From: an uncultured Verrucomicrobiota bacterium | GTDB lineage: Bacteria; Verrucomicrobiota; Verrucomicrobiia; Verrucomicrobiales; Akkermansiaceae | NCBI GenBank assembly: GCA_937867415.1 | Contig: CALMKO010000089.1 | Coordinates: forward strand, 1 to 38,302 | Length of the DNA stretch: 38,302 nt | Reading direction: 5' to 3' | In this document: positions 3,096-36,295 of the stretch, piece after piece | Position numbering within the stretch: position 1 is the stretch's first letter | Layout of the letters: every line of letters begins with the position of its first letter | Notes under the pieces: generated by a model | The model's input: only the letters and a program-made list of their open reading frames with translations | Database searches by the model: none | Told to the model about the DNA's origin: nothing | Program-made: the position numbers and the translations under genes

Positions 3096-4154
3096 TTAGA
3101 AGTTCCAGTCGTGTTGATCGAGGTCGCAGACGCAGGCGCTTAGCAGCTGCACGCAGGCGCTCAGATCCTCCTTGTGGCAGGTCTCGATGGTTTGGTGGAT
3201 GTGGCGCGTGGGGACGGAAATCGCGCCGGCGATGGAGCCACCGGCGACCATTCTCTGGAGGTTGGCGGTGTCGGTGCCGCCAGCGGAGAGAATTTCCGGT
3301 TGCCACTTGATATGATGACGCTTTGCAGTGGCTTTCATGAACTCAATCATGCGGTAATCACAGATGACCGAGGAGTCCATGAGCTTGATGGCAGCGCCCT
3401 CGCCCAGTGCGGTGCAGCGTTCCTGGGGCGTGGAGCCCGGAATGTCATAGGCGATGGTGGTGTCGAGGCCGAAGCTGAAATCCGGCTGGACTTGCAAGGC
3501 GGATGCCTGGGCACCGCGGAGGCCCACTTCCTCCTGAACGGTGAAGACGGCGTGGAAATCATAGGCGGGCTTGCGCTTGGAGGCCTTCAATGCGCGGAGC
3601 GTTTGGATCAAAACAAAAACGGAGGCCCGGTTGTCGAGGGATTTCACATTCACGCAGTCACCGAGCTCGATCAGCGGCGAGTGGCGGGTGACGAAATCCC
3701 CGATGGAGACGAGTTTTTCGACCTCTTTTTTCGGAAGTCCGGTATCGATGAAGTAGTCCGTGATCTTGGGGACCTTGTTTTTTTCCTCGGGGGACATGAT
3801 GTGCACGGGCTTGGAGCCCATGACCCCCATGAGATCCTTGCTGCCGTGGATGATGACACGTTGCGAGGTGAGCGTCTTGGGGTCGAATCCACCGACCGGA
3901 TTGAAGCGGACGAAGCCCTTGTCGTCGATGTGGGTGACGATGAAGCCGATTTCATCCATGTGGGCGGCGGCCATGATTTTGTGGCTGGCGGATTTGCCTT
4001 TTTTAAGGGCGATGACATTGCCCATGGCGTCCACCTTGATGGAGTCGGCAAGGCCGGAGAGTTCGGCAAGCACGAGCTTGCGGATCTCTTTTTCATACCC
4101 TGGAGCGCCGGGAGCTTCACAAATTCGGGTGAGTAAGGGGATGTCGATTGGCAT
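3096..4154 (-). CDS. M42-family aminopeptidase (FrvX/YsdC/PepA type)
   Basis: The 352-residue protein has the layout of M42 metallo-aminopeptidases, cytoplasmic enzymes that form large oligomeric cages and trim N-terminal residues from peptides. AHMDEIGF near residues 64-71 supplies the first zinc histidine and the following aspartate. KSLDNRAS carries the bridging aspartate, and VQEEVGLRGA carries the catalytic glutamate pair. GLDTTIAYD and the late PTRHIHQ histidine complete the metal site. Length is normal for the family. It is transcribed towards the acyltransferase ORF and away from the DUF177 gene, from which it is separated by 87 bases. Peptide trimming would fit with the peptide importers elsewhere in the window, but that link is only an inference. 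Confidence 0.9.
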   Translation of the reverse strand: MPIDIPLLTRICEAPGAPGYEKEIRKLVLAELSGLADSIKVDAMGNVIALKKGKSASHKIMAAAHMDEIGFIVTHIDDKGFVRFNPVGGFDPKTLTSQRVIIHGSKDLMGVMGSKPVHIMSPEEKNKVPKITDYFIDTGLPKKEVEKLVSIGDFVTRHSPLIELGDCVNVKSLDNRASVFVLIQTLRALKASKRKPAYDFHAVFTVQEEVGLRGAQASALQVQPDFSFGLDTTIAYDIPGSTPQERCTALGEGAAIKLMDSSVICDYRMIEFMKATAKRHHIKWQPEILSAGGTDTANLQRMVAGGSIAGAISVPTRHIHQTIETCHKEDLSACVQLLSACVCDLDQHDWNF

Positions 4155-7153: not shown

Positions 7154-8989
7154 ATGTCCCACCGCACGACACCGTTGGAAATCGAAGGGATGCCGCCCGG
7201 TATCCCCTACATCATCGGGAATGAAGCGGCGGAGCGATTTTCATTCTATGGGATGCGGTCGATTCTGGTGGTCTTCATGGTGCAGTATCTACATCTCATG
7301 GATGGCAGCGGGCAGGCGATCTCGAAGAACGAGGCGGTCGCGAACTACCATGAATTCGCCGGTTGGGTGTATTTCACGCCCTTTCTCGGCGCCTTGTTGG
7401 CCGATATCTTTTTGGGGAAATACCGGACCATCCTGTGGCTCTCGATGGTCTATTGCCTCGGTCATGCGGCGCTGGCTTGCATGGGGACCAGCGGGAATTC
7501 TCCGCAATGGCTGCTCGTGGGGCTGGTCTTGATCTGTATCGGTTCGGGGGGGATCAAGCCCTGTGTGTCCGCGCATGTCGGTGATCAATTCGGAAAGAGC
7601 AACCATCACCTGATACCGGGAATCTATCACTGGTTCTATTTTTCCATCAACTTCGGGGCCTTCTTCTCCACGCTGCTCACGCCGTGGTTGCTTCACCAGT
7701 ACGGGCCGCATTGGGCTTTTGGTGTGCCTGGGGTGTTGATGGCGCTTGCCACATTCATGTTCTGGCTGGGACGCAAGCGCTTCGTCCACATCCCGCCATC
7801 GGGCTCGCGTTTTTTCAAGGAGATGTTTTCAAGGGATGGCATGGTGGCGCTGGGGAAGCTGATTCCGTTGTTCACGTTCATCGCGGTGTTCTGGTCACTC
7901 TATGACCAGACGGGCTCATCCTGGGTCCTGCAAGCGGAACAGATGGATCTAACATTTCTCGGGGTCACCTGGCTGGAGTCGCAGATTCAGGCGGTCAATC
8001 CGGTTTTGGTTTTGATCTATATTCCGTTGTTCACGTTTTTTGTCTATCCATGGTTGGACCGGATCTTTCCGCTCACCCCCTTGCGCAAGATCGGGCTGGG
8101 CTTGCTTCTGATGACGGCGTCATTCGCTCTGAGCACCTTGATCCAGACGTGGATCGATGCCGGGCAGCGCCCATCCATCGGCTGGCAGGTGCTGGCCTTC
8201 GCCATCATCACCGCTTCGGAGATCATGGTTTCCATCGTGGGATTGGAATTCGCATACACCCAGTCGCCGAGGGCGATGAAGTCCCTGATCATGTCCTTGT
8301 TTCTGCTTGCGGTGTGGGGTGGGAACAAGTTCACGGCAGCGGTCAATCATTTCATCGCCATTCCATCCGCGGGTGAGGTGCAGTTTGCGGCGGCGACTGC
8401 ACAATTGCCGCCGGATTGGCGGACCTCGCCGCGGAATGTGACGCTACCCGGGCATGATGGGGTGACGGGAACCCTGGATGATCTTGTGGCGCGTTGCCGG
8501 CAAGGGCGCCTGGAGGCCCTGGAGATTCCCGGGCGGTCGGTTTTCCTGGCGGCGGCGGAAAAAATCGAGGTTGCTTCCGGCAAGGCGCTGCCGTCGAATC
8601 CAGAGGGCCGTAAACTGCTGGGGGAGGCAAAAGATCTGTGGGGAAATCCCCTGGTTTATCAGCTCATCGACTCCACTCACGCGAAAATATCCAGTGCCGG
8701 TCCGGATCGAACGAGTCAGACGCAGTGGGATACGGGTTTAATGATTGAGAAGGTGGCCTCCGAGACGGTTCCCGCCGGCGCGACTTGGCTCGGGCGACGC
8801 AAGGAGGAGCTTGGAATAGCAGAGCAGCCGAGTGCCGCGGGGTTTGAGCGCACGGAGTTTTCAGGGGGGCAGAGTAAGTTGGAAGGAGCGGCCTATTTCT
8901 CGTTCTTTACCTGGCTGGTCTTCGCCACGCTGCTCATTTACGTTCCTTTTGCCTGTTTTTATCGGCCGAAGGGGTATTTACACGATTGA
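7154..8989 (+). CDS. POT/PTR-family proton-coupled peptide transporter with a soluble insert
   Basis: The 611-residue protein belongs to the proton-dependent oligopeptide transporters of the inner membrane, which bring in di- and tripeptides. The proton-coupling signature ExxERFxxYG is present as EAAERFSFYG at residues 24-33. FTPFLGALLADIFLGKYRT and GIKPCVSAHVGDQF also match the family. Membrane segments run to about residue 402 and resume at 579-603. Between them lies a soluble stretch of about 175 residues that simple POT proteins lack. It contains GHDGVTGTLDDL (433-444), LWGNPLVYQ (495-503) and SAGPD (514-518), which recall the C-terminal part of GspG-type pseudopilins. The transporter call is firm; the meaning of the insert is open. 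Confidence 0.92.
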   Translation: MSHRTTPLEIEGMPPGIPYIIGNEAAERFSFYGMRSILVVFMVQYLHLMDGSGQAISKNEAVANYHEFAGWVYFTPFLGALLADIFLGKYRTILWLSMVYCLGHAALACMGTSGNSPQWLLVGLVLICIGSGGIKPCVSAHVGDQFGKSNHHLIPGIYHWFYFSINFGAFFSTLLTPWLLHQYGPHWAFGVPGVLMALATFMFWLGRKRFVHIPPSGSRFFKEMFSRDGMVALGKLIPLFTFIAVFWSLYDQTGSSWVLQAEQMDLTFLGVTWLESQIQAVNPVLVLIYIPLFTFFVYPWLDRIFPLTPLRKIGLGLLLMTASFALSTLIQTWIDAGQRPSIGWQVLAFAIITASEIMVSIVGLEFAYTQSPRAMKSLIMSLFLLAVWGGNKFTAAVNHFIAIPSAGEVQFAAATAQLPPDWRTSPRNVTLPGHDGVTGTLDDLVARCRQGRLEALEIPGRSVFLAAAEKIEVASGKALPSNPEGRKLLGEAKDLWGNPLVYQLIDSTHAKISSAGPDRTSQTQWDTGLMIEKVASETVPAGATWLGRRKEELGIAEQPSAAGFERTEFSGGQSKLEGAAYFSFFTWLVFATLLIYVPFACFYRPKGYLHD

Positions 8990-21098: not shown

Positions 21099-22532
21099 TC
21101 AAACCCGCCGGATTTTACCGCTTGCCGTGAGTGGTATCTGATCCACAAAGCGGACCTGGACGGGGACCTTATAGATGGAAACAAGGTCACGGCACCAGTG
21201 GATGAGTTCCCGGGCTGTGAGTGAATGGCCGGGCTCTAAAATGACGTCGGCGACTGGGACGATTCCGAGGATGGAATGATGGATGCCCGTGATGCGACAC
21301 CGATTCACCGCTGCATGACGCTCGATGATGGTTTCAATTTCCTCGGGGAAGACCTTCATCCCGTTGATGTTGAGCACGCTTTTTTTCCTTCCCCGCAAAT
21401 GCAGCCGCCCGGCGGCATCGGTCTCGGCGAGGTCTCCGGTGGCGAACCAACCGTCCACGCAGATTTCCGTGACGGGTTGCCACGGTGAAAGGTAGGCGTC
21501 AAACATGCCCGGGCCCTTGATCCAGAGCTCGCCTACACATCCCGCAGGCAAGGCCCTGCCATCGTCATCACGAAGCTCGATGTCAAAGGCTGGCAGCGGG
21601 CGGCCGACTGCGGTAGGGGCGTCGATGGCGCTGCCCGTATTCACCAGTGGCAGCCCGATTTCGATGATGCCCAATCCCTGAACCAGCGCTTTTCCAAATC
21701 TCTGATAGAAGTGCCGCGCGGTTTCGACGGGGAGAGGTGCTGCGGTCGAGACGGCGAGGCGCAAGTCCGGCCATGAGTATCCTCCGCGGTCGGCGGCAAG
21801 CAATGCATAGTGAAAAGGTGCGCCGTAAATGACCGTCGCGCGGGTGGTTTCGGCGGTGTCGAGAACTTCTTCCGCAAGGTGCGAGCTGCCTAACACCGTG
21901 CAGGCTCCGTGGTAAAGATAGAGCACGATGGAAACTGCGAAGTGATGTGCCATGGGAAGCATCCACAGGATCCGGTCTCGCGGGCAGATTTCCAAGGCGG
22001 CATTCGCGGCTACGATCCTTTCGCGCAGCTTTGTATGGCTCAGGATCACTCCCTTGCTGCTTCCTGTGGTGCCAGAGCTGAAGCGGATGAACGCTGGCTC
22101 CAGGTTCGCGAACTCCGCTTCGTTTTCAAGGTTGCCACCCTCAAGGGCAACCCAGATGGCGAGGGTCGATGGTTCCATACAAAGCGTGACGGAGGGAATC
22201 CAGGTCTCCGGTGATCCAAGAATCAGGCCGGATAGTGCGGTTCTCTCGATCAACTCACGTCGTTCTGTTTCGGTCAGTTCCTCCGCGATCGGCACCAAGC
22301 AGCCGCCTGCTTTGAGAATGGCAAGTGCCAGGACGATGTAGGTGACCCCGCTCTCGCAAGCCAATCCAATGCGGGGGCAGCGCTTGCGGTCGAAGCCGGG
22401 GCAGTGGCTGAGCCAGTCCGCAACCACCGAGACCCGCTCGAAAAGCTCGCCGTAGGTTGTCGTTTCGCCCTCATGCATCAATGCAGGACATTGAGCGGAG
22501 GCTCTGAGAACGATCTGGTCGACGATATTCAC
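21099..22532 (-). CDS. Stand-alone class I adenylate-forming enzyme (AMP-binding)
   Basis: I choose GTG 22532 (477 residues) because AAGGA lies eight bases before it; TTG 22568 would add 12 residues without such a site. The protein has the ANL signature FSSGTTGSSKG (residues 151-161), DGWFATGDLAE, GRKKSVLNINGMKVFPEEIE (the hinge region) and the catalytic A10 lysine in SGKIRR at the very end. It should activate a carboxylic acid as an acyl-adenylate, probably passing it to CoA or a carrier protein. There is no carrier domain. The usual YGxTE motif reads GIIEIG, which does not point to a known substrate class. It converges on ftsW with an eight-base gap. The HDAC-like gene upstream is on the same strand, 54 bases away. 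Confidence 0.88.
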   Translation of the reverse strand: MNIVDQIVLRASAQCPALMHEGETTTYGELFERVSVVADWLSHCPGFDRKRCPRIGLACESGVTYIVLALAILKAGGCLVPIAEELTETERRELIERTALSGLILGSPETWIPSVTLCMEPSTLAIWVALEGGNLENEAEFANLEPAFIRFSSGTTGSSKGVILSHTKLRERIVAANAALEICPRDRILWMLPMAHHFAVSIVLYLYHGACTVLGSSHLAEEVLDTAETTRATVIYGAPFHYALLAADRGGYSWPDLRLAVSTAAPLPVETARHFYQRFGKALVQGLGIIEIGLPLVNTGSAIDAPTAVGRPLPAFDIELRDDDGRALPAGCVGELWIKGPGMFDAYLSPWQPVTEICVDGWFATGDLAETDAAGRLHLRGRKKSVLNINGMKVFPEEIETIIERHAAVNRCRITGIHHSILGIVPVADVILEPGHSLTARELIHWCRDLVSIYKVPVQVRFVDQIPLTASGKIRRV

Positions 22533-22586
22533 GTGACGTATCCTTGAGGGGAAATCGATTGATGACAAGCTTTCACCTGGACCGGT

Positions 22587-23531
22587 TCAGCCAAGCGCGC
22601 GGACGTGCGCCAGTGCGGCAGATGCCAATCCACCCGGATTGTAGCCCCCTTCTAACACGGAAACCAAGCGGCCATGGCACCACCTTGCGGCCAGGGATCG
22701 GGCGCGCCGGGTCATTGCGGCAAATGTGTCATCGGTCCAACGCAGCCCGCCGATGGGGTCATCCACCCGGGCATCAAAACCGGCGGATATCAGGATGAAG
22801 TCAGGTTTGAAATCGTCGATCGCGGGTGCAATCTGGTTCTCCCACTCTTCCAAGGCGAGGCTGCCCTCCGAATGGTGGGGCAGGGGAATGTTCAGGTTGA
22901 ATCCCTGCCCCGCTCCCTGCCCTTGCTCGCTGGCAAGCCCGGTGTAGGGATACATGTTTGCTTCGTGCAGGGAAATGTAGAGAACCGATGGATCCTCGAT
23001 GAAAATGGCTTCCGTCCCATTGCCGTGGTGGACGTCCCAGTCGATGATCGCCACTTTCATGAGTCCGTGCCTCGATTGCAAATACCGGGCGGCGATGGCG
23101 ACGTGATTGAAGATACAAAAGCCCATCCCTCTCGTGGCTGTGGCATGATGTCCCGGCGGGCGTACGGCGCAAAAAACGGACTGCAGGTCTCCACGCATCA
23201 CCGCATCGGTTGCTGCTAGAACGGCGCCGGCCGCTTCCAATGCCACCTCATAACTCTCCTCACAAATGGCCGTGTCACCGGTGGGGAGTTTGTCTGCAAA
23301 GGTTTCCGCACTCCGATAGACCAAGTCATGGTAGTAATGCTCATGGGCGAGTAGAATCTCGGCCACGCTGGCCTTGCGCCCTCCCACGCGCGCCACACTT
23401 GCTGGCAGGGTCTCGAGGGCTGCTTCCAGCGCCTGATACCGAGCAGCCGACTCCGGATGACCGGGGCCGGTGTCATGACGCTCGTAGCACGAGTGGTAAT
23501 GCACACCCACGGATTGGCAATCTTCATTCAT
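22587..23531 (-). CDS. Histone-deacetylase-family (AcuC/HDAC-like) zinc deacetylase
   Basis: The protein has 314 residues from ATG 23531; ATG 23582 would add 17 residues. Family motifs are RPPGHHAT with the catalytic histidine pair (128-129), DWDVHHGNGTE with zinc ligands Asp166 and His168, SAGFDARVDDPIGG with the third zinc ligand Asp253, and EGGYNPGGLA near the end. Bacterial members deacetylate acetylated lysines, acetylpolyamines or other small amides in the cytoplasm; the substrate cannot be told from sequence. The downstream same-strand gene is an acyl-activating enzyme, as acuC neighbours an acetyl-CoA synthetase in some bacteria. The partner here is too divergent to press the analogy. 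Confidence 0.9.
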   Translation of the reverse strand: MNEDCQSVGVHYHSCYERHDTGPGHPESAARYQALEAALETLPASVARVGGRKASVAEILLAHEHYYHDLVYRSAETFADKLPTGDTAICEESYEVALEAAGAVLAATDAVMRGDLQSVFCAVRPPGHHATATRGMGFCIFNHVAIAARYLQSRHGLMKVAIIDWDVHHGNGTEAIFIEDPSVLYISLHEANMYPYTGLASEQGQGAGQGFNLNIPLPHHSEGSLALEEWENQIAPAIDDFKPDFILISAGFDARVDDPIGGLRWTDDTFAAMTRRARSLAARWCHGRLVSVLEGGYNPGGLASAALAHVRALG

Positions 23532-23630
23532 TTCTGAGACCTGCTGTGTGCACGACCTTTGCAGCGGCAGGTGCCAAGTCAATGTCTATCGACAGGGCGG
23601 ATGCTCATCGGATCAGGGGGGGGCGGATGC

Positions 23631-31252: not shown

Positions 31253-32590
31253 GTGAAAAGTTATTTTCTCCGCCGCTTGCTGTTGATTCCGCCGACCATG
31301 ATCGGGATCACGCTGCTCGTATTCACGATCACCCGCTTCGTGCCTGGCGGTCCGATCGACCGAATGCTCCAACAGGCGGCTGAAGGGAACAAGGGGAAAA
31401 GCACCTCGTCCGGAAACTCCAAGGGCGGCCTGAGCGAAGAGCAGCTCGAGGAACTGGAGGAGTCCTACGGTCTCGATAAAACCACCCTCGTCGCCTATGG
31501 CCAATGGCTGGGGGTTCTTCCCCGTGAGATTGATATCTCTAAGGGCGAGTTCGACATCCAGTCAGACGAGACCATCGGCGGCAGCGTTGACGGGAAATCC
31601 ACGGCTCAACTGATTCTCAAGGGCGACGGGCGGCTCGTCCATGCCAAGCGGGAAGGTGGTACGATCCGCTCCGTGATTTTTCCTGATACCGGGAAAGCGC
31701 TTCCCGCGCAGGATTGGGAAATCCGTTATGAAACGCAGGCCGAGCGCCAGTTGCGCTACGCCAGGCGGAACCCGGGCGCGGTGGAGCGTCCGAGTTACAA
31801 TGACCGGGTGGTGATCTATCAGTCGCGCTTTTCCGGAATCCTCCAAGGAGATCTCGGGCGCTCGATGGTGTATGGCGACCCGGTTTCAGAAATGATCCTC
31901 GCCCGGATGCCGGTCGCCGTTTATTTCGGACTGCTCACGGCCTTCATCACCTACTCGGTTTGTTTGCCCTTGGGGATTTTGAAGGCCCTGAAACACCGGA
32001 CCTTCCTGGACTCCGCAAGTTCGGTTTTGATTTTCCTCGGCTACTCGATTCCCGGTTTTGCCTTGGGGGCGATCCTGCTCGTTCATCTCGGGGCACGTGC
32101 GAATCTGTTTCCGCTTTTCGGTCTCACGAGCGCCAACTTCGGGGAAATGGGTCCGTGGGTCCAGGTGAAAGACCTGGCGCACCATACCGTCCTGCCGCTG
32201 ACCTGTTACATGATCGGCGGTTTCGCCATGTTGACGATGCTGGTGAAGAACAATCTGATGGACAACCTCGCTGCGGATTACGTGCGCACGGCCGTGGCTA
32301 AAGGGACGAGTTTCCGGGGCGCGGTCTTCGGCCATGCGTTCCGGAACTCGATGATTCCGGTGGCCACCAGCCTGGGTGGTCTGGTGACGATTTTCGTGGG
32401 TGGCTCGATGCTGATCGAGCGGGTTTTCGACATTCAGGGATTTGGCCTGCTGCAATTCCAATCGGTGGTTGAGCGGGATGTGCCGGTGATCATGGGGACT
32501 CTCACGATTGCGGCATTTCTCACGCTGATCGGGAATGTCATCTCGGATCTGAGCGTCGCGCTGGTCGATCCACGAATCAAATTCCAATAG
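31253..32590 (+). CDS. yejB: YejB-like peptide ABC importer permease with a periplasmic insert
   Basis: The 445-residue protein from GTG 31253 matches YejB, the permease of the YejABEF importer that takes up peptides including microcin C in Escherichia coli. Shared blocks are RRLLLIPPTMIGITLLVFTITRFVPGGPID, FGLTSANFG, YMIGGFAMLTMLVKNNLMD, YVRTAVAKGTSFRGAVFGHAFRN (coupling loop) and the ending VDPRIKF. It is about 80 residues longer than the Escherichia coli protein. The extra part, roughly residues 88-192 between YGQWLG and FSGILQGDLGRSMVYGDP, is hydrophilic and would face the periplasm; it includes a charged stretch ILKGDGRLVHAKREGG. It heads an operon with the yejE-like gene, binding protein, oppD and oppF. 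Confidence 0.9.
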   Translation: MKSYFLRRLLLIPPTMIGITLLVFTITRFVPGGPIDRMLQQAAEGNKGKSTSSGNSKGGLSEEQLEELEESYGLDKTTLVAYGQWLGVLPREIDISKGEFDIQSDETIGGSVDGKSTAQLILKGDGRLVHAKREGGTIRSVIFPDTGKALPAQDWEIRYETQAERQLRYARRNPGAVERPSYNDRVVIYQSRFSGILQGDLGRSMVYGDPVSEMILARMPVAVYFGLLTAFITYSVCLPLGILKALKHRTFLDSASSVLIFLGYSIPGFALGAILLVHLGARANLFPLFGLTSANFGEMGPWVQVKDLAHHTVLPLTCYMIGGFAMLTMLVKNNLMDNLAADYVRTAVAKGTSFRGAVFGHAFRNSMIPVATSLGGLVTIFVGGSMLIERVFDIQGFGLLQFQSVVERDVPVIMGTLTIAAFLTLIGNVISDLSVALVDPRIKFQ

Positions 32591-32591
32591 C

Positions 32592-34166
32592 ATGAAGCGC
32601 GGCGGCGGACTTTTTCTAACCATTCTCGGAATCCTCTCGCTCGTGGGGGAGATCAAGGGGATTTCGTTTCCAACCGCGCGCTGGTTTTTCGAAACGAGCC
32701 GTGAAGTGCCTTGGTTGCACATCGCTCGGGGAAACCAGGTGTTCCCATGGTTCGGCTGGTTTGCCTGCGGAGTCCTGATCCTCGGGGGCCTTGCGATGCT
32801 CGTCCGGTCACTGACCGCCGGCCCGCCCAATCCTGTGACCGTGCGCAGGTTGCGGCGTTTTCGGGAAATCAAGCGGGGTTATTATTCATTGCTCATCCTG
32901 TTAGGTTTTTGCGGGCTCGCAATGCTTGATCAAGTGATTGTGGGAAAGCGGGCACTTGCGGTGGAGTGGAATGGTCAATGGATTTTCCCCGCGTTCCGTG
33001 CCGAGGAGATGAAAAACAAGGACTTCGGCATCACCGGGCCTCGGGCGGAGGCGGTGGTCGATTACCGTCAGTTGAAACGGACTTTTGCCGGCAGCGGGGC
33101 TGGCAGGGTCGTGTTGCCGGTCGTGCCGTATGATCCCACGGGTGATACCCTCGCACCCCGCTCGCGGGCGATGGAGCAGCGTGAGAAAACCTACTACGAG
33201 GGCCGCGGCGGTGATCCCTATTTCGGTCTGGCCGCGAGGTATCACGATGTGGATGCAGCTCGCATCCATCTCCGCTATACCTTCCGCCGGGGACAACTCA
33301 ACGGGCCTGTCGATGGCTGGAATCAAGAGGGCGAGCCGGTCTATAGTGCGGAGTATCGTGACGGAGAACTTGTGTCAGATCGATACAATGGCGTCGGATC
33401 CAAGGCGGAGTTTCTCGCTCTGCCGACCAGTGAGATTCGTGCGGTCAAGTATCACCCTGCACCGCCGCTGCCTGAGACCGGGAATTGGTTGGGAACCACT
33501 TCGCAGGGCTATGATGTGGTGGCGTATCTTTATGGTGGATTGCAGGTGAACCTCAAGGCGGCGCTGATTTTCCTGCCTCTTGTGTATCTGATCGGGATCA
33601 CCATCGGAATGTCGATGGGTTACTTCGGTGGGTGGTTCGATATCGTTGCAGACCGCCTCATTGAGATATTTTCAAACATCCCGTTTCTGTTCGTCATCAT
33701 CATTCTCTCGAGCATGGTTCCAGAGCGTTACAAGGGGCTGACGATCATTCTTGTGATCTTGATCGTGTTCGGATGGATGGGAATCGCTTCGTTGATGAGG
33801 ACGGCGGCTTACCGCGACAAGACACGCGACTATATATCCGCCGCCAAGGTCCTGGGCGCGGGCACGCCGCGCATGATCTTTCATCACTTGCTCCCGAACA
33901 CGCTTGCCATCATCGTGACCTTGGTGCCGTTTTCCTTGTCCGGGTTGATCTTCTCCCTGACCGCGCTCGACTACCTTGGATTTGGTCTGCCACCCCAGTA
34001 TGCTTCCTGGGGACGCCTGCTGAATGATGGCCTGGCCAATCTTTCCTCGCCGTGGCTGGTCACTTCCACCTTCATTTGCCTCGTCGGGCTTCTCGTTTTG
34101 ATCACCTTCGTGGGCGAGGCCATTCGCGAGGCCCTGGACCCGAAAAAATTCACTTTCTATCGTTGA
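32592..34166 (+). CDS. yejE: YejE-like peptide ABC importer permease with N-terminal extension and MORN-like insert
   Basis: The 524-residue protein aligns by eye with YejE: RFREIKRGYYSLLILLGFCGLAMLDQV, ALAVEWNGQWIFPAF, DYRQL, NWLGTTSQGYDVVAYLYGGLQVNLKAAL, coupling loop DYISAAKVLGAGTPRMIFHHLLPN, ending EAIREALDPKKF. It is about 180 residues longer than Escherichia coli YejE (341). One addition is an N-terminal segment (1-90) with one or two extra membrane helices. The other is a periplasmic stretch (about 185-290) containing YTFRRGQLNGPVDGWNQEG and YSAEYRDGELVSDRYNG, like YwqK/MORN_2 repeats. It starts one base after yejB. Its stop shares a base with the next start. Confidence 0.88.
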   Translation: MKRGGGLFLTILGILSLVGEIKGISFPTARWFFETSREVPWLHIARGNQVFPWFGWFACGVLILGGLAMLVRSLTAGPPNPVTVRRLRRFREIKRGYYSLLILLGFCGLAMLDQVIVGKRALAVEWNGQWIFPAFRAEEMKNKDFGITGPRAEAVVDYRQLKRTFAGSGAGRVVLPVVPYDPTGDTLAPRSRAMEQREKTYYEGRGGDPYFGLAARYHDVDAARIHLRYTFRRGQLNGPVDGWNQEGEPVYSAEYRDGELVSDRYNGVGSKAEFLALPTSEIRAVKYHPAPPLPETGNWLGTTSQGYDVVAYLYGGLQVNLKAALIFLPLVYLIGITIGMSMGYFGGWFDIVADRLIEIFSNIPFLFVIIILSSMVPERYKGLTIILVILIVFGWMGIASLMRTAAYRDKTRDYISAAKVLGAGTPRMIFHHLLPNTLAIIVTLVPFSLSGLIFSLTALDYLGFGLPPQYASWGRLLNDGLANLSSPWLVTSTFICLVGLLVLITFVGEAIREALDPKKFTFYR

Positions 34167-36295
34167 TGCATCGAATCACCCACCACCTTCTGTTGCTTGC
34201 TGCTGCTGGGCTGGGCATGGTCCTCATTTCCGGATGTGAACGCAGGACTCAGGCCGTGGTCCGGCCATTTGGATTCGATGAGTTCGTTCCGGTTTACAAC
34301 CGTCACATCCAAGATTGGCTGGTCGGTCAGGAAAAGGCGGCGCTGGCGGCGCTGGAGAACAACGCGGTCGCCATTTCCAACGCGGAGGGTGAGGCGAAAG
34401 CGCGGCTCGAAATCCAAACCGCCTCGCTGCAACGGGACTTGGCAAAGTGGCAGTTCCGCCTCGCCCATGGCGACTATATCAAATTCCGGAATGTCGAAGA
34501 TGTGCCGACGGATCTGGTCTGGGAGAATGGAATGGATCAGCCCGAGATTGGCGATCCTGCGGCGAAAAAAGGCGGCGTCCTGCGGCGAAACTTTCCCGGG
34601 CTTGATTTTCCACCGACCATCCGCCCGTTCGGACCGAACTCCAATAACAGTTTCCGCGGTGATCTCTATGACAACATCGAACTCCCCCTGGTGGGCCTGC
34701 ATCCCGGAACGATGAAGGAAATCCCCGGTGTCGCCAGCGAGTGGGCGGTCACTGCGGATCGGCGGACGGTGTATCTGAAGATCGATCCTGCGGCAACTTA
34801 CTCGGACGGCGAGCCGGTAAAAGCGCGGGACTTTCTGATCGCGCTGTATGTCCGTGTCTCGGACAATGTCGTCAATCCCTATACCAAGCAGTTCTTCCGC
34901 GAGAGTTACGCGGGGATGACGACGTATGGTGACCGGCTCATTGCGGTCACCCTGCCCGAAGCACAAATCTATCCGGCGGCAGCGGCGGGCGCCATCGCTC
35001 CGGCGTCGCCCAAGTTTTATGCAGACTACGGTCCTGATTATGCAGACCGTTACCAGTGGTTGTTTCCGCCGACCACCGGGGCTTACGAGGTTCTTCCGCA
35101 AGATCTGGTGAAAGGGGTCTCGATCACCCAGAGCCGGGTGAAGAACTGGTGGGCGAAGGATCGCAAGTATTTCAAATACCGCTTCAATCCGGACAAGCTG
35201 GTCTATGTATTGGTCCGTGACGAGTCGAAGGCATTCGAACTTTTCCGCTCGGGCGAGTTCGATTCATTCCCGCTCACAAGGCCGGAGTTCTGGTATGAAA
35301 AGTCCGAGATGCCGCCGGTTTATGATGGGTATATCGAACGTGCGACTTTTTATAACCGCTACCCGAAGCTGCCGCGTGGCCTCTATCTCAATGTGACGCG
35401 GCCCTTGTTGAATGATTTGAACGTGAGGATTGGTATCCAGCACTCGATGAATTGGCAGAAAGTCATCGATGTGCTTTTCCGGGGGGACTTCGCGAGGCTC
35501 AATGCCTTCAATGAAGGCTATGAGAACTTCAGCGATCCTTCGATCCGCGCGCGGCCGTTTTCCATTGAGCAGGCGAGAGCTGCCTTTCGTGCGGCAGGCT
35601 TCACGGTGGAGGGGGCGGACGGGATTCTGGAAAAACCGGACGGGACACGGCTCTCGGTTCCGGTCTCGTATGCCTCCATTCCTGCGACTGATCGCTTGTT
35701 CGCGATCCTCCGTGAGGAGGCCAGATCTTGTGGGTTTGACCTCCGGCTGGATGGGCTCGAAAGCACGGTGTGGTATAAAAAAATCATGCAGAAGCAGCAC
35801 GATATGCAGTTTTCCGCGTGGAATACCAATCCTCCCTTGCCTGACTTCTATCAGTTTCTTCATTCTTCCGCTGCCTTCGATGACAAGGGGAATCCCAAGC
35901 CGCAGACCAATAACTTTTTCCTGTGGAGCCGTCCTGACACCGACATGTTGACCGATAAGGCCCGCAGTGCCCGGACGGAAGAGGAGTTGCGTGACGCTTC
36001 GTGGAAGCTCCAGCGCATCATGCATGACGAGGCGATTTTTGTGCCGGGTTATGTTTCCGAATTCCAGCGGATCGGCTATTGGCGGTGGGTGAAGTGGCCG
36101 GAAACCGCAGAGACGCATTTCAGCCCCGCGATGGTTTATGAGCCGCATGAGGGATTTGCCTTCTGGATCGACCAGGAGGTTCTCGATGAGACCCGGGAGG
36201 CCCGTCGTTCTGGAAAAACCTTTCCTGAAGTCAACCGTGTGATCGACCAGTATCGGCAGGTCCCCGCGCCTGTTTTACCCCATCCATCCGAATGA
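34166..36295 (+). CDS. YejA-like peptide-binding lipoprotein with a helical N-terminal segment
   Basis: The 709-residue protein starts at ATG 34166, which overlaps the previous TGA by one base. A lipoprotein signal ends in the lipobox LISGC with Cys24. Residues 44-100 are charged and alanine-rich and likely form a long helix or coiled coil, not usual in binding proteins. The SBP family 5 part follows: KGGVLRRNFPGLDFPPTIRPFGP, TYSDGEPVKARDFLIAL, PPTTGAYEVLPQD, KAFELFRSGEFDSF and LYLNVTRPLLNDLNVRIGIQHSMNW. The pattern resembles YejA rather than OppA, in line with the YejB- and YejE-like neighbours. It should pass peptides to that permease pair. oppD overlaps its stop by four bases. Confidence 0.88.
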   Translation: MHRITHHLLLLAAAGLGMVLISGCERRTQAVVRPFGFDEFVPVYNRHIQDWLVGQEKAALAALENNAVAISNAEGEAKARLEIQTASLQRDLAKWQFRLAHGDYIKFRNVEDVPTDLVWENGMDQPEIGDPAAKKGGVLRRNFPGLDFPPTIRPFGPNSNNSFRGDLYDNIELPLVGLHPGTMKEIPGVASEWAVTADRRTVYLKIDPAATYSDGEPVKARDFLIALYVRVSDNVVNPYTKQFFRESYAGMTTYGDRLIAVTLPEAQIYPAAAAGAIAPASPKFYADYGPDYADRYQWLFPPTTGAYEVLPQDLVKGVSITQSRVKNWWAKDRKYFKYRFNPDKLVYVLVRDESKAFELFRSGEFDSFPLTRPEFWYEKSEMPPVYDGYIERATFYNRYPKLPRGLYLNVTRPLLNDLNVRIGIQHSMNWQKVIDVLFRGDFARLNAFNEGYENFSDPSIRARPFSIEQARAAFRAAGFTVEGADGILEKPDGTRLSVPVSYASIPATDRLFAILREEARSCGFDLRLDGLESTVWYKKIMQKQHDMQFSAWNTNPPLPDFYQFLHSSAAFDDKGNPKPQTNNFFLWSRPDTDMLTDKARSARTEEELRDASWKLQRIMHDEAIFVPGYVSEFQRIGYWRWVKWPETAETHFSPAMVYEPHEGFAFWIDQEVLDETREARRSGKTFPEVNRVIDQYRQVPAPVLPHPSE

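Follow-up and report, generated by a model that had tools for sequence, protein, structure and literature searches.

A pseudopilin-like domain predicted in the periplasmic TM11-TM12 loop of a Verrucomicrobiota POT transporter

Among POT/PTR2 peptide:H+ symporters, mammalian PepT1 and PepT2 carry an ectodomain between TM9 and TM10 that consists of two immunoglobulin-like folds and binds trypsin, according to the consulted parts of PMC4597091. A large extracellular domain is absent from bacterial POTs, as stated in those parts and in the consulted parts of PMC4331665. The C-terminal domain of GspG-type pseudopilins (PF08334; structure 3G20) has a D-P-W-G-x-P-x-x-Y strand, a hairpin and an S-x-G-P-D loop on a helix-plus-sheet pilin fold. 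The calcium motif PERCAL, G-x-D-G-x-x-[GN]-[TN]-x-D-D, was defined by Santamaria-Hernando et al. (PMC3396595), whose consulted sections report calcium binding to a PERCAL-motif peptide with a KD of 33-79 uM and note the motif in pseudopilin 3G20 as well. Its hosts in those sections are heme peroxidases and pseudopilins, and the word 'transporter' is absent from the main text.

Here, we analyzed a window of DNA (a whole stretch of 38,302 nucleotides from an uncultured Verrucomicrobiota bacterium) in which the host of such a motif is a POT transporter. As in the mammalian proteins, a folded domain stands in an outward loop of the POT C-terminal bundle. However, the model places it at TM11-TM12 and not at TM9-TM10. 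Transporter family and domain type are both known, whereas their combination appears to be new: we found no published description of a pseudopilin-like domain in a POT transporter in the open-access literature, the range of our search, outside which most subscription papers lie.

The transporter and its inserted domain

Feature coordinates are on the forward strand unless marked otherwise. The ORF at 7154-8989 encodes a 611-aa POT/PTR2 peptide:H+ symporter, with 269.4 bits for PF00854 against a cut-off of 27. An NCBIfam scan gives 306.6 bits for TIGR00926, under that model's own cut-off of 821.6, and the other Pfam and NCBIfam matches are to the wider MFS family or are weak ones below cut-off. 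The AlphaFold model of the whole transporter, built on a 72-row alignment, has a pLDDT of 87.3, a pTM of 0.88 and 12 TM helices. POT transporters fill a fold search with this model from the top row, the best being PepTSo (4uvm, E 4e-24). The product therefore resembles the described POT/PTR2 proteins (PepTSo 2xut/4uvm, PepT1 and PepT2) in helix number, best structural matches and family motifs. EAAERF lies in TM1 at residue 24, GSGGIKP in TM4 and GLEFAYTQ in TM10, and across 72 transporter proteins these segments are mostly invariant or nearly so. We take the TM4 and TM10 segments to be POT family motifs. ExxERFxYY on TM1 is given as a POT motif in the consulted part of PMC4331665. Judged by these sequence features, the product would take up peptides coupled to protons.

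Unlike the known POT/PTR2 proteins, it has a 177-residue periplasmic domain at TM11-TM12, comprising residues 402-578 (8357-8887). In the whole-protein model the insert is one domain reaching from TM11 (residues 373-401; 8270-8356) to TM12 (residues 579-602; 8888-8959), and modeled alone it has a pLDDT of 85.2 and a pTM of 0.75. Because Lys and Arg number 17 on the inner side and 2 on the outer side, with the insert left out of the count, the positive-inside pattern assigns this loop to the periplasm. The original prediction had put a pseudopilin-like segment between membrane segments of a POT transporter at 8450-8758. Host and placement are borne out, and the interval does lie in the insert, but the domain is larger than that interval. 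The motifs it had named, GHDGVTGTLDDL, LWGNPLVYQ and SAGPDRTSQTQWD, are all present in frame in the ORF.

Within the insert, a modeled helix at residues 461-474 (8534-8575) may stand where pilins have their alpha1-C helix, the pilin alignment described below covering positions 58-174 of the insert. DLWGNPLVYQ (residues 494-503; 8633-8662), in which LWGNPLVYQ occupies residues 495-503 (8636-8662), corresponds to the pseudopilin D-P-W-G-x-P-x-x-Y strand. The C-terminal part (residues 527-578; 8732-8887) is modeled as a strand, a helix with W545, a further strand and the glycine pair 571-572. Two calcium-type loops, loop 1 and loop 2, complete the domain and are treated separately. We aligned 79 inserts (alignment A4, the window and 78 loci; L085, with a broken frame, and L100, at a contig end, were excluded). 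G433, G516, W525, W545, G571 and G572 are invariant in all 79. Counted over the same rows, loop 1 has D435 in 75 and D442 and D443 in 72 each; the WGNP strand has D494 in 77, W496 in 75, G497 in 70, P499 in 59 and Y502 in 74; and loop 2 has D518 and D526 in 78 each and T523 in 75.

Chance similarity of the motifs was rejected: translated in six frames, the window contains the exact pattern GxDGxx[GN][TN]xDD a single time, where its composition predicts 0.0002 occurrences, and the motif residues are near-fixed in the 79 inserts. An assembly or frame artefact was rejected as well because the insert is in frame across dozens of genomes. Separately, some transporter copies have broken or split reading frames, with stops or a frame shift (L024/L085, L025 and G277:C111).

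Relation of the insert to GspG-type pseudopilins

The T2SSG profile (PF08334) gave no match to the window's own insert at E<=10, nor to residues 429-529 alone at E<=1. Across the orthologous inserts, 42 of 79 match at E<=10, the best at 3e-6. Ten relatives were scored singly, nine of them as whole transporters and one as the insert; two exceed the Pfam cut-off of 21 (L113 with 24.4 bits and L107 with 21.2 bits), and the remaining eight fall below it or have no match. On the 108-position profile, the relatives' matches begin at about 53-66 and end at 96-102. The HMM search proposed with the original prediction is thus negative for the window's protein and positive for the family, through those two orthologues. 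Pfam found no N_methyl or prepilin motif in the transporter or in the inserts, where the domain is internal.

Searching 387 genomes of the phylum with an insert profile (A1) gave matches in 95. In 15 genomes these are strong (E<=2.4e-32) and are the transporters themselves; 80 more genomes have weak matches only, against about 4 expected at E<=0.01. All 15 weak loci examined (L131-L145) carry a D-x-W-G ... S-x-G-P-D ... acidic module; nine have a prepilin motif, and the other six, which lack it, are single-anchor proteins. L131 and L132, the two of the nine that were scanned in Pfam, have T2SSG and N_methyl both above cut-off. With hhalign, the insert scored 72 against the short-hairpin pseudopilins ('pil'), 58 against the single-anchor proteins ('tm') and 54 against T2SSG loci picked by Pfam ('gsp'), where the best of 60 column shuffles reached 22.5, 16.6 and 21.8, respectively; the aligned stretch is about 32-52 residues. 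Because 'pil' and 'tm' consist mostly of insert-profile matches, their scores are aided by selection. The 'gsp' set, which comprises the 12 of 30 T2SSG loci (L146-L175) in which the motif pattern was found, is free of that.

When the insert model was compared by VIA-align with 993 chains, the best four were type IV pilins (3soj, Z 6.3; 4xa2, 6.0; 4noa, 5.9; 1qve, 5.8; 85-91 residues aligned) and the next row stood at 4.6, values below 8 being ones that may reflect a common arrangement. GspG and immunoglobulin chains are not among the best 50 of the 993, which excludes nothing. Foldseek with the same model gave no match at E<=0.001, so the fold check divides: a confident model with pilins in its four best VIA-align rows, but nothing significant from Foldseek. 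Against PDB sequences, phmmer with the insert returned a chance primase match only, and the insert profile put 3g20_A, a type II secretion protein, first at an E of 0.35, which is not significant.

It could be argued that an unrelated small beta domain gained two PERCAL-type loops and a WGNP hairpin by convergence, with no pseudopilin descent. PERCAL loops do occur in unrelated proteins, for example heme peroxidases (consulted sections of PMC3396595), and both the absence of a T2SSG match in the window's own insert and the negative Foldseek search fit such an origin. However, the D-x-W-G-x-P-x-x-Y strand, hairpin and loop stand in the right order and spacing, the profile-profile scores exceed the shuffles widely, two relatives pass the Pfam T2SSG cut-off and the fold comparison favors pilins. 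We regard convergence as distinctly improbable. At the sequence level, the D-x-W-G hairpin and the calcium loop are homologous to those of pseudopilins, and for the insert as a whole a pilin-type fold is predicted. It is likely that the C-terminal alpha/beta domain of a GspG-type pseudopilin either gave rise to the insert or has its core in common with it, and we assign the domain to the pseudopilin type with considerable confidence. The pseudopilin likeness first read from the motifs is in this respect upheld by the T2SSG matches in relatives, by the profile search that leads to pseudopilins, by hhalign and by VIA-align.

The insert also departs from GspG. It sits inside a transporter, lacks the prepilin peptidase motif and the N-terminal hydrophobic helix, has Trp for Asp at motif position 10, adds a calcium-type loop in front and continues for about 50 residues behind.

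A family of single-anchor Verrucomicrobiota proteins (L133, L135, L136, L140, L142, L143 and L202) shares the hairpin and loop spacing of the insert. Their C-terminal module reads D-R-W-G-T-P ... S-A-G-P-D ... T-x-D-D, they have no prepilin motif, and T2SSG matched the two that were scanned weakly (12.2 and 13.2 bits). In contrast to the insert, they have one N-terminal anchor and no transporter, most keep the DD, and no added loop was seen in them. Such proteins are a possible donor of the insert. One of them, L202 (G000:C308), is encoded in the source genome itself and bears the module of the insert. The same genome encodes a GspG with a canonical loop, with further pilin-like genes adjoining (L203), and two secretins. 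With L202, L203 and the two secretins, the genome thus holds candidates from which the domain may have come.

Two calcium-type loops

Loop 1 is GHDGVTGTLDD (residues 433-443; 8450-8482), within GHDGVTGTLDDL (residues 433-444; 8450-8485). It is an exact match to the PERCAL consensus of PMC3396595, with a predicted strand on either side. The strict motif is found in 43 of 79 inserts and a relaxed form in 71. Loop 2 is SAGPDRTSQTQWD (residues 514-526; 8693-8731), which falls at the pseudopilin calcium-loop position when the insert profile is aligned to 3g20, with W525 at motif position 10. In the consulted sections of PMC3396595, the calcium ligands of 3G20 are D117, T122, D125 and two main-chain oxygens. 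T122 is listed in one passage as a side-chain ligand and in another, where it is position 8, as binding through the main chain, and D124 is not named as a ligand. Loop 2 retains ligand positions 3, 8 and 11 as D518, T523 and D526, and D124 corresponds to W525, a non-ligand position with Trp in 79 of 79. By analogy with the PERCAL peptide and with 3G20, the insert would have two putative calcium sites.

The original prediction had read the motif order as reversed relative to pseudopilins, with the DD-bearing motif first. A scan of 11,325 pairs of non-overlapping 14-column windows of the insert alignment put loop 1 against loop 2, ungapped, at the top, and a simple reversal was rejected on this ground. 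Because the two loops are the best-matching pair in the insert, loop 1 is best read as an added, duplicated copy of the loop at the pseudopilin position.

An Asp pair at loop-2 positions 10-11 is found neither in the window's insert (W525-D526) nor in any of the 79 A4 rows; it occurs only in L182-L184, from three genomes of one genus. Their shortened inserts, at residues of about 400-510, have no loop 1, and their second loop, SAGPDGELKTEDD or SAGPDGELKTSDD, is the canonical pseudopilin form with the acidic pair. (The loop-1 pattern match assigned to these loci in the tree is a false match to their loop 2.) Because L182-L184 nest within the Trp clade in a 63-row transporter tree, the loop-2 Asp probably returned there upon loss of loop 1. 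However, L199 has no loop 1 yet keeps the loop-2 Trp, and the loop-1 DD pair is gone in seven of 79 inserts, all of which retain that Trp. Any compensation between the loops therefore rests on one lineage. We consider it doubtful that the captured domain is a two-site calcium switch or docking head at the outer gate in which the loops act together, the added loop 1 having relaxed the acidic pair of loop 2 to Trp-Asp and the pair having come back where loop 1 was lost, as in L182-L184.

A related possibility is that the insert packs on the periplasmic mouth as a calcium-responsive gate, so that calcium would set outward opening and uptake would track external calcium. In the model the insert is tied at both ends to the C-terminal bundle, and the invariant W545 and G571-G572 lie toward the TM12 join and may contact the transporter. 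TM11-TM12 periplasmic extensions are required for transport in the mycobacterial proteins Rv1410 and MHAS2168, according to the consulted part of PMC10576003. A fixed two-site sensor, however, is not conserved because loop 1 is degraded in the seven inserts and absent from L182-L184 and L199. We hold such a gate to be unlikely.

Distribution, neighborhood and possible role

The transporter was matched in 31 of 39 related genomes. Thirty loci were retained, 24 of them with a readable insert; L026-L029 have none, L023 is truncated at a contig end and the frame of L024 is broken. From a scan of a wider genome collection the best 80 of 343 relatives were kept, all from Verrucomicrobiota wherever a group is given, and 78 gave alignable inserts. 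At the level of the order, 179 of 191 genomes have a transporter match and at least 79 of the 191 span the insert in one piece; these genomes overlap those of the wider collection, and the counts are not additive. In many other members of the order, the frame is about 450-530 aa long and the match ends close to residue 401, which is the insert-free form. The survey of Verrucomicrobiota POT proteins suggested at the outset accordingly finds the insert to be a family feature.

In a tree of 63 transporters computed with the insert columns omitted, one change separates 52 carriers from 11 non-carriers (L023, L024, L025, L030, L187, L196 and 61 of the 80 named loci are not in the tree). The carrier branch has a bootstrap of 97 but an SH-aLRT of 32. 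From this tree, the insertion probably occurred once, in an ancestor within Verrucomicrobiales. The change count alone cannot discriminate gain from loss; a gain would be the simpler account, since POTs elsewhere generally have no insert, as far as the consulted part of PMC4331665 goes. Two further observations concern divergent relatives. In genus g13, which belongs to the same family, there are POTs with lower identity and no match over the insert, and L185, the one examined, has no insert. L189 (G497:C105), a homologue with the insert, has a highly divergent membrane part, with 37% identity and an extreme branch length, and by its sequence it is perhaps no longer a transporter.

Insert-free transporters are common in the same order, and mean column identity is 43% in the insert against 61% in the whole protein (alignment A5, the window and 71 others; L085, L100 and seven proteins of 590 aa or less, L045, L053, L076, L081, L086, L091 and L098, were excluded). 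Both would suit a tolerated passenger, a neutral insertion into a TM11-TM12 loop that accepts cargo. The single branch of origin, the presence of the insert in no fewer than 79 of the 191 genomes and the six residues invariant in 79 of 79 speak against this, and we give it little credence.

No neighboring gene is conserved: fabH lies directly upstream at 16 of 69 loci and mraZ downstream at 0 of 72. A partner, if there is one, is therefore probably encoded away from the locus. Other ORFs of the window were recorded in passing. An M42 aminopeptidase is encoded at 3096-4154 on the reverse strand, and 31253-36292 encodes a permease component of the inner membrane together with a family-5 solute-binding protein. 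Family-5 solute-binding proteins are of a type that often serves peptides. The mraW-like 521-aa ORF at 9957-11522 matches the methyltransferase domain only from residue 217; either its N-terminus carries a long extension or its start codon was placed too early. A histone-deacetylase-domain protein (22587-23582, reverse strand) adjoins an AMP-binding enzyme (21099-22568).

The GspG with its canonical loop and the two secretins of the source genome might suggest that the insert docks on a type II secretion pseudopilus, coupling protein secretion to peptide uptake. Pseudopilins assemble mainly via their N-terminal hydrophobic helix, and the insert has neither this helix nor a prepilin motif. The scanned ORFs of the window show no linkage to secretion genes, and we judge this coupling very improbable.

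The explanation toward which we lean, by a small measure, is that a captured pseudopilin-type domain serves as a calcium-stiffened periplasmic docking or gating module on an intact importer. A domain of this type would have entered the TM11-TM12 periplasmic loop of an ordinary peptide importer and lost its prepilin N-terminus. Calcium at periplasmic concentration would stiffen both hairpins, and the insert would stand as a rigid knob whose two ends are both anchored in the mobile C-terminal bundle, presenting an extracytoplasmic docking surface or a lid beside the outward gate. As a docking head, it might recruit to the transporter's mouth partners that produce or bind peptides, or else tune the opening of the transporter. 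It would then work like the mammalian PepT ectodomain, with another fold and at another site. Docking as the role of the insert is itself tentative, and we put it at somewhat short of even.

Taken at this strength, a large bacterial group bears an outer domain on its POT transporters, of an origin and at a site other than those of mammalian PepT1 and PepT2, and the C-terminal calcium domain of pseudopilins has left the secretion machinery. If the two-site calcium switch or docking head were true, bacteria would have their own equivalent of the PepT ectodomain, on a POT that calcium regulates. Since close relatives without the insert exist, the family offers a natural test of what an outer domain does for such a transporter, be it docking, gating or stability.
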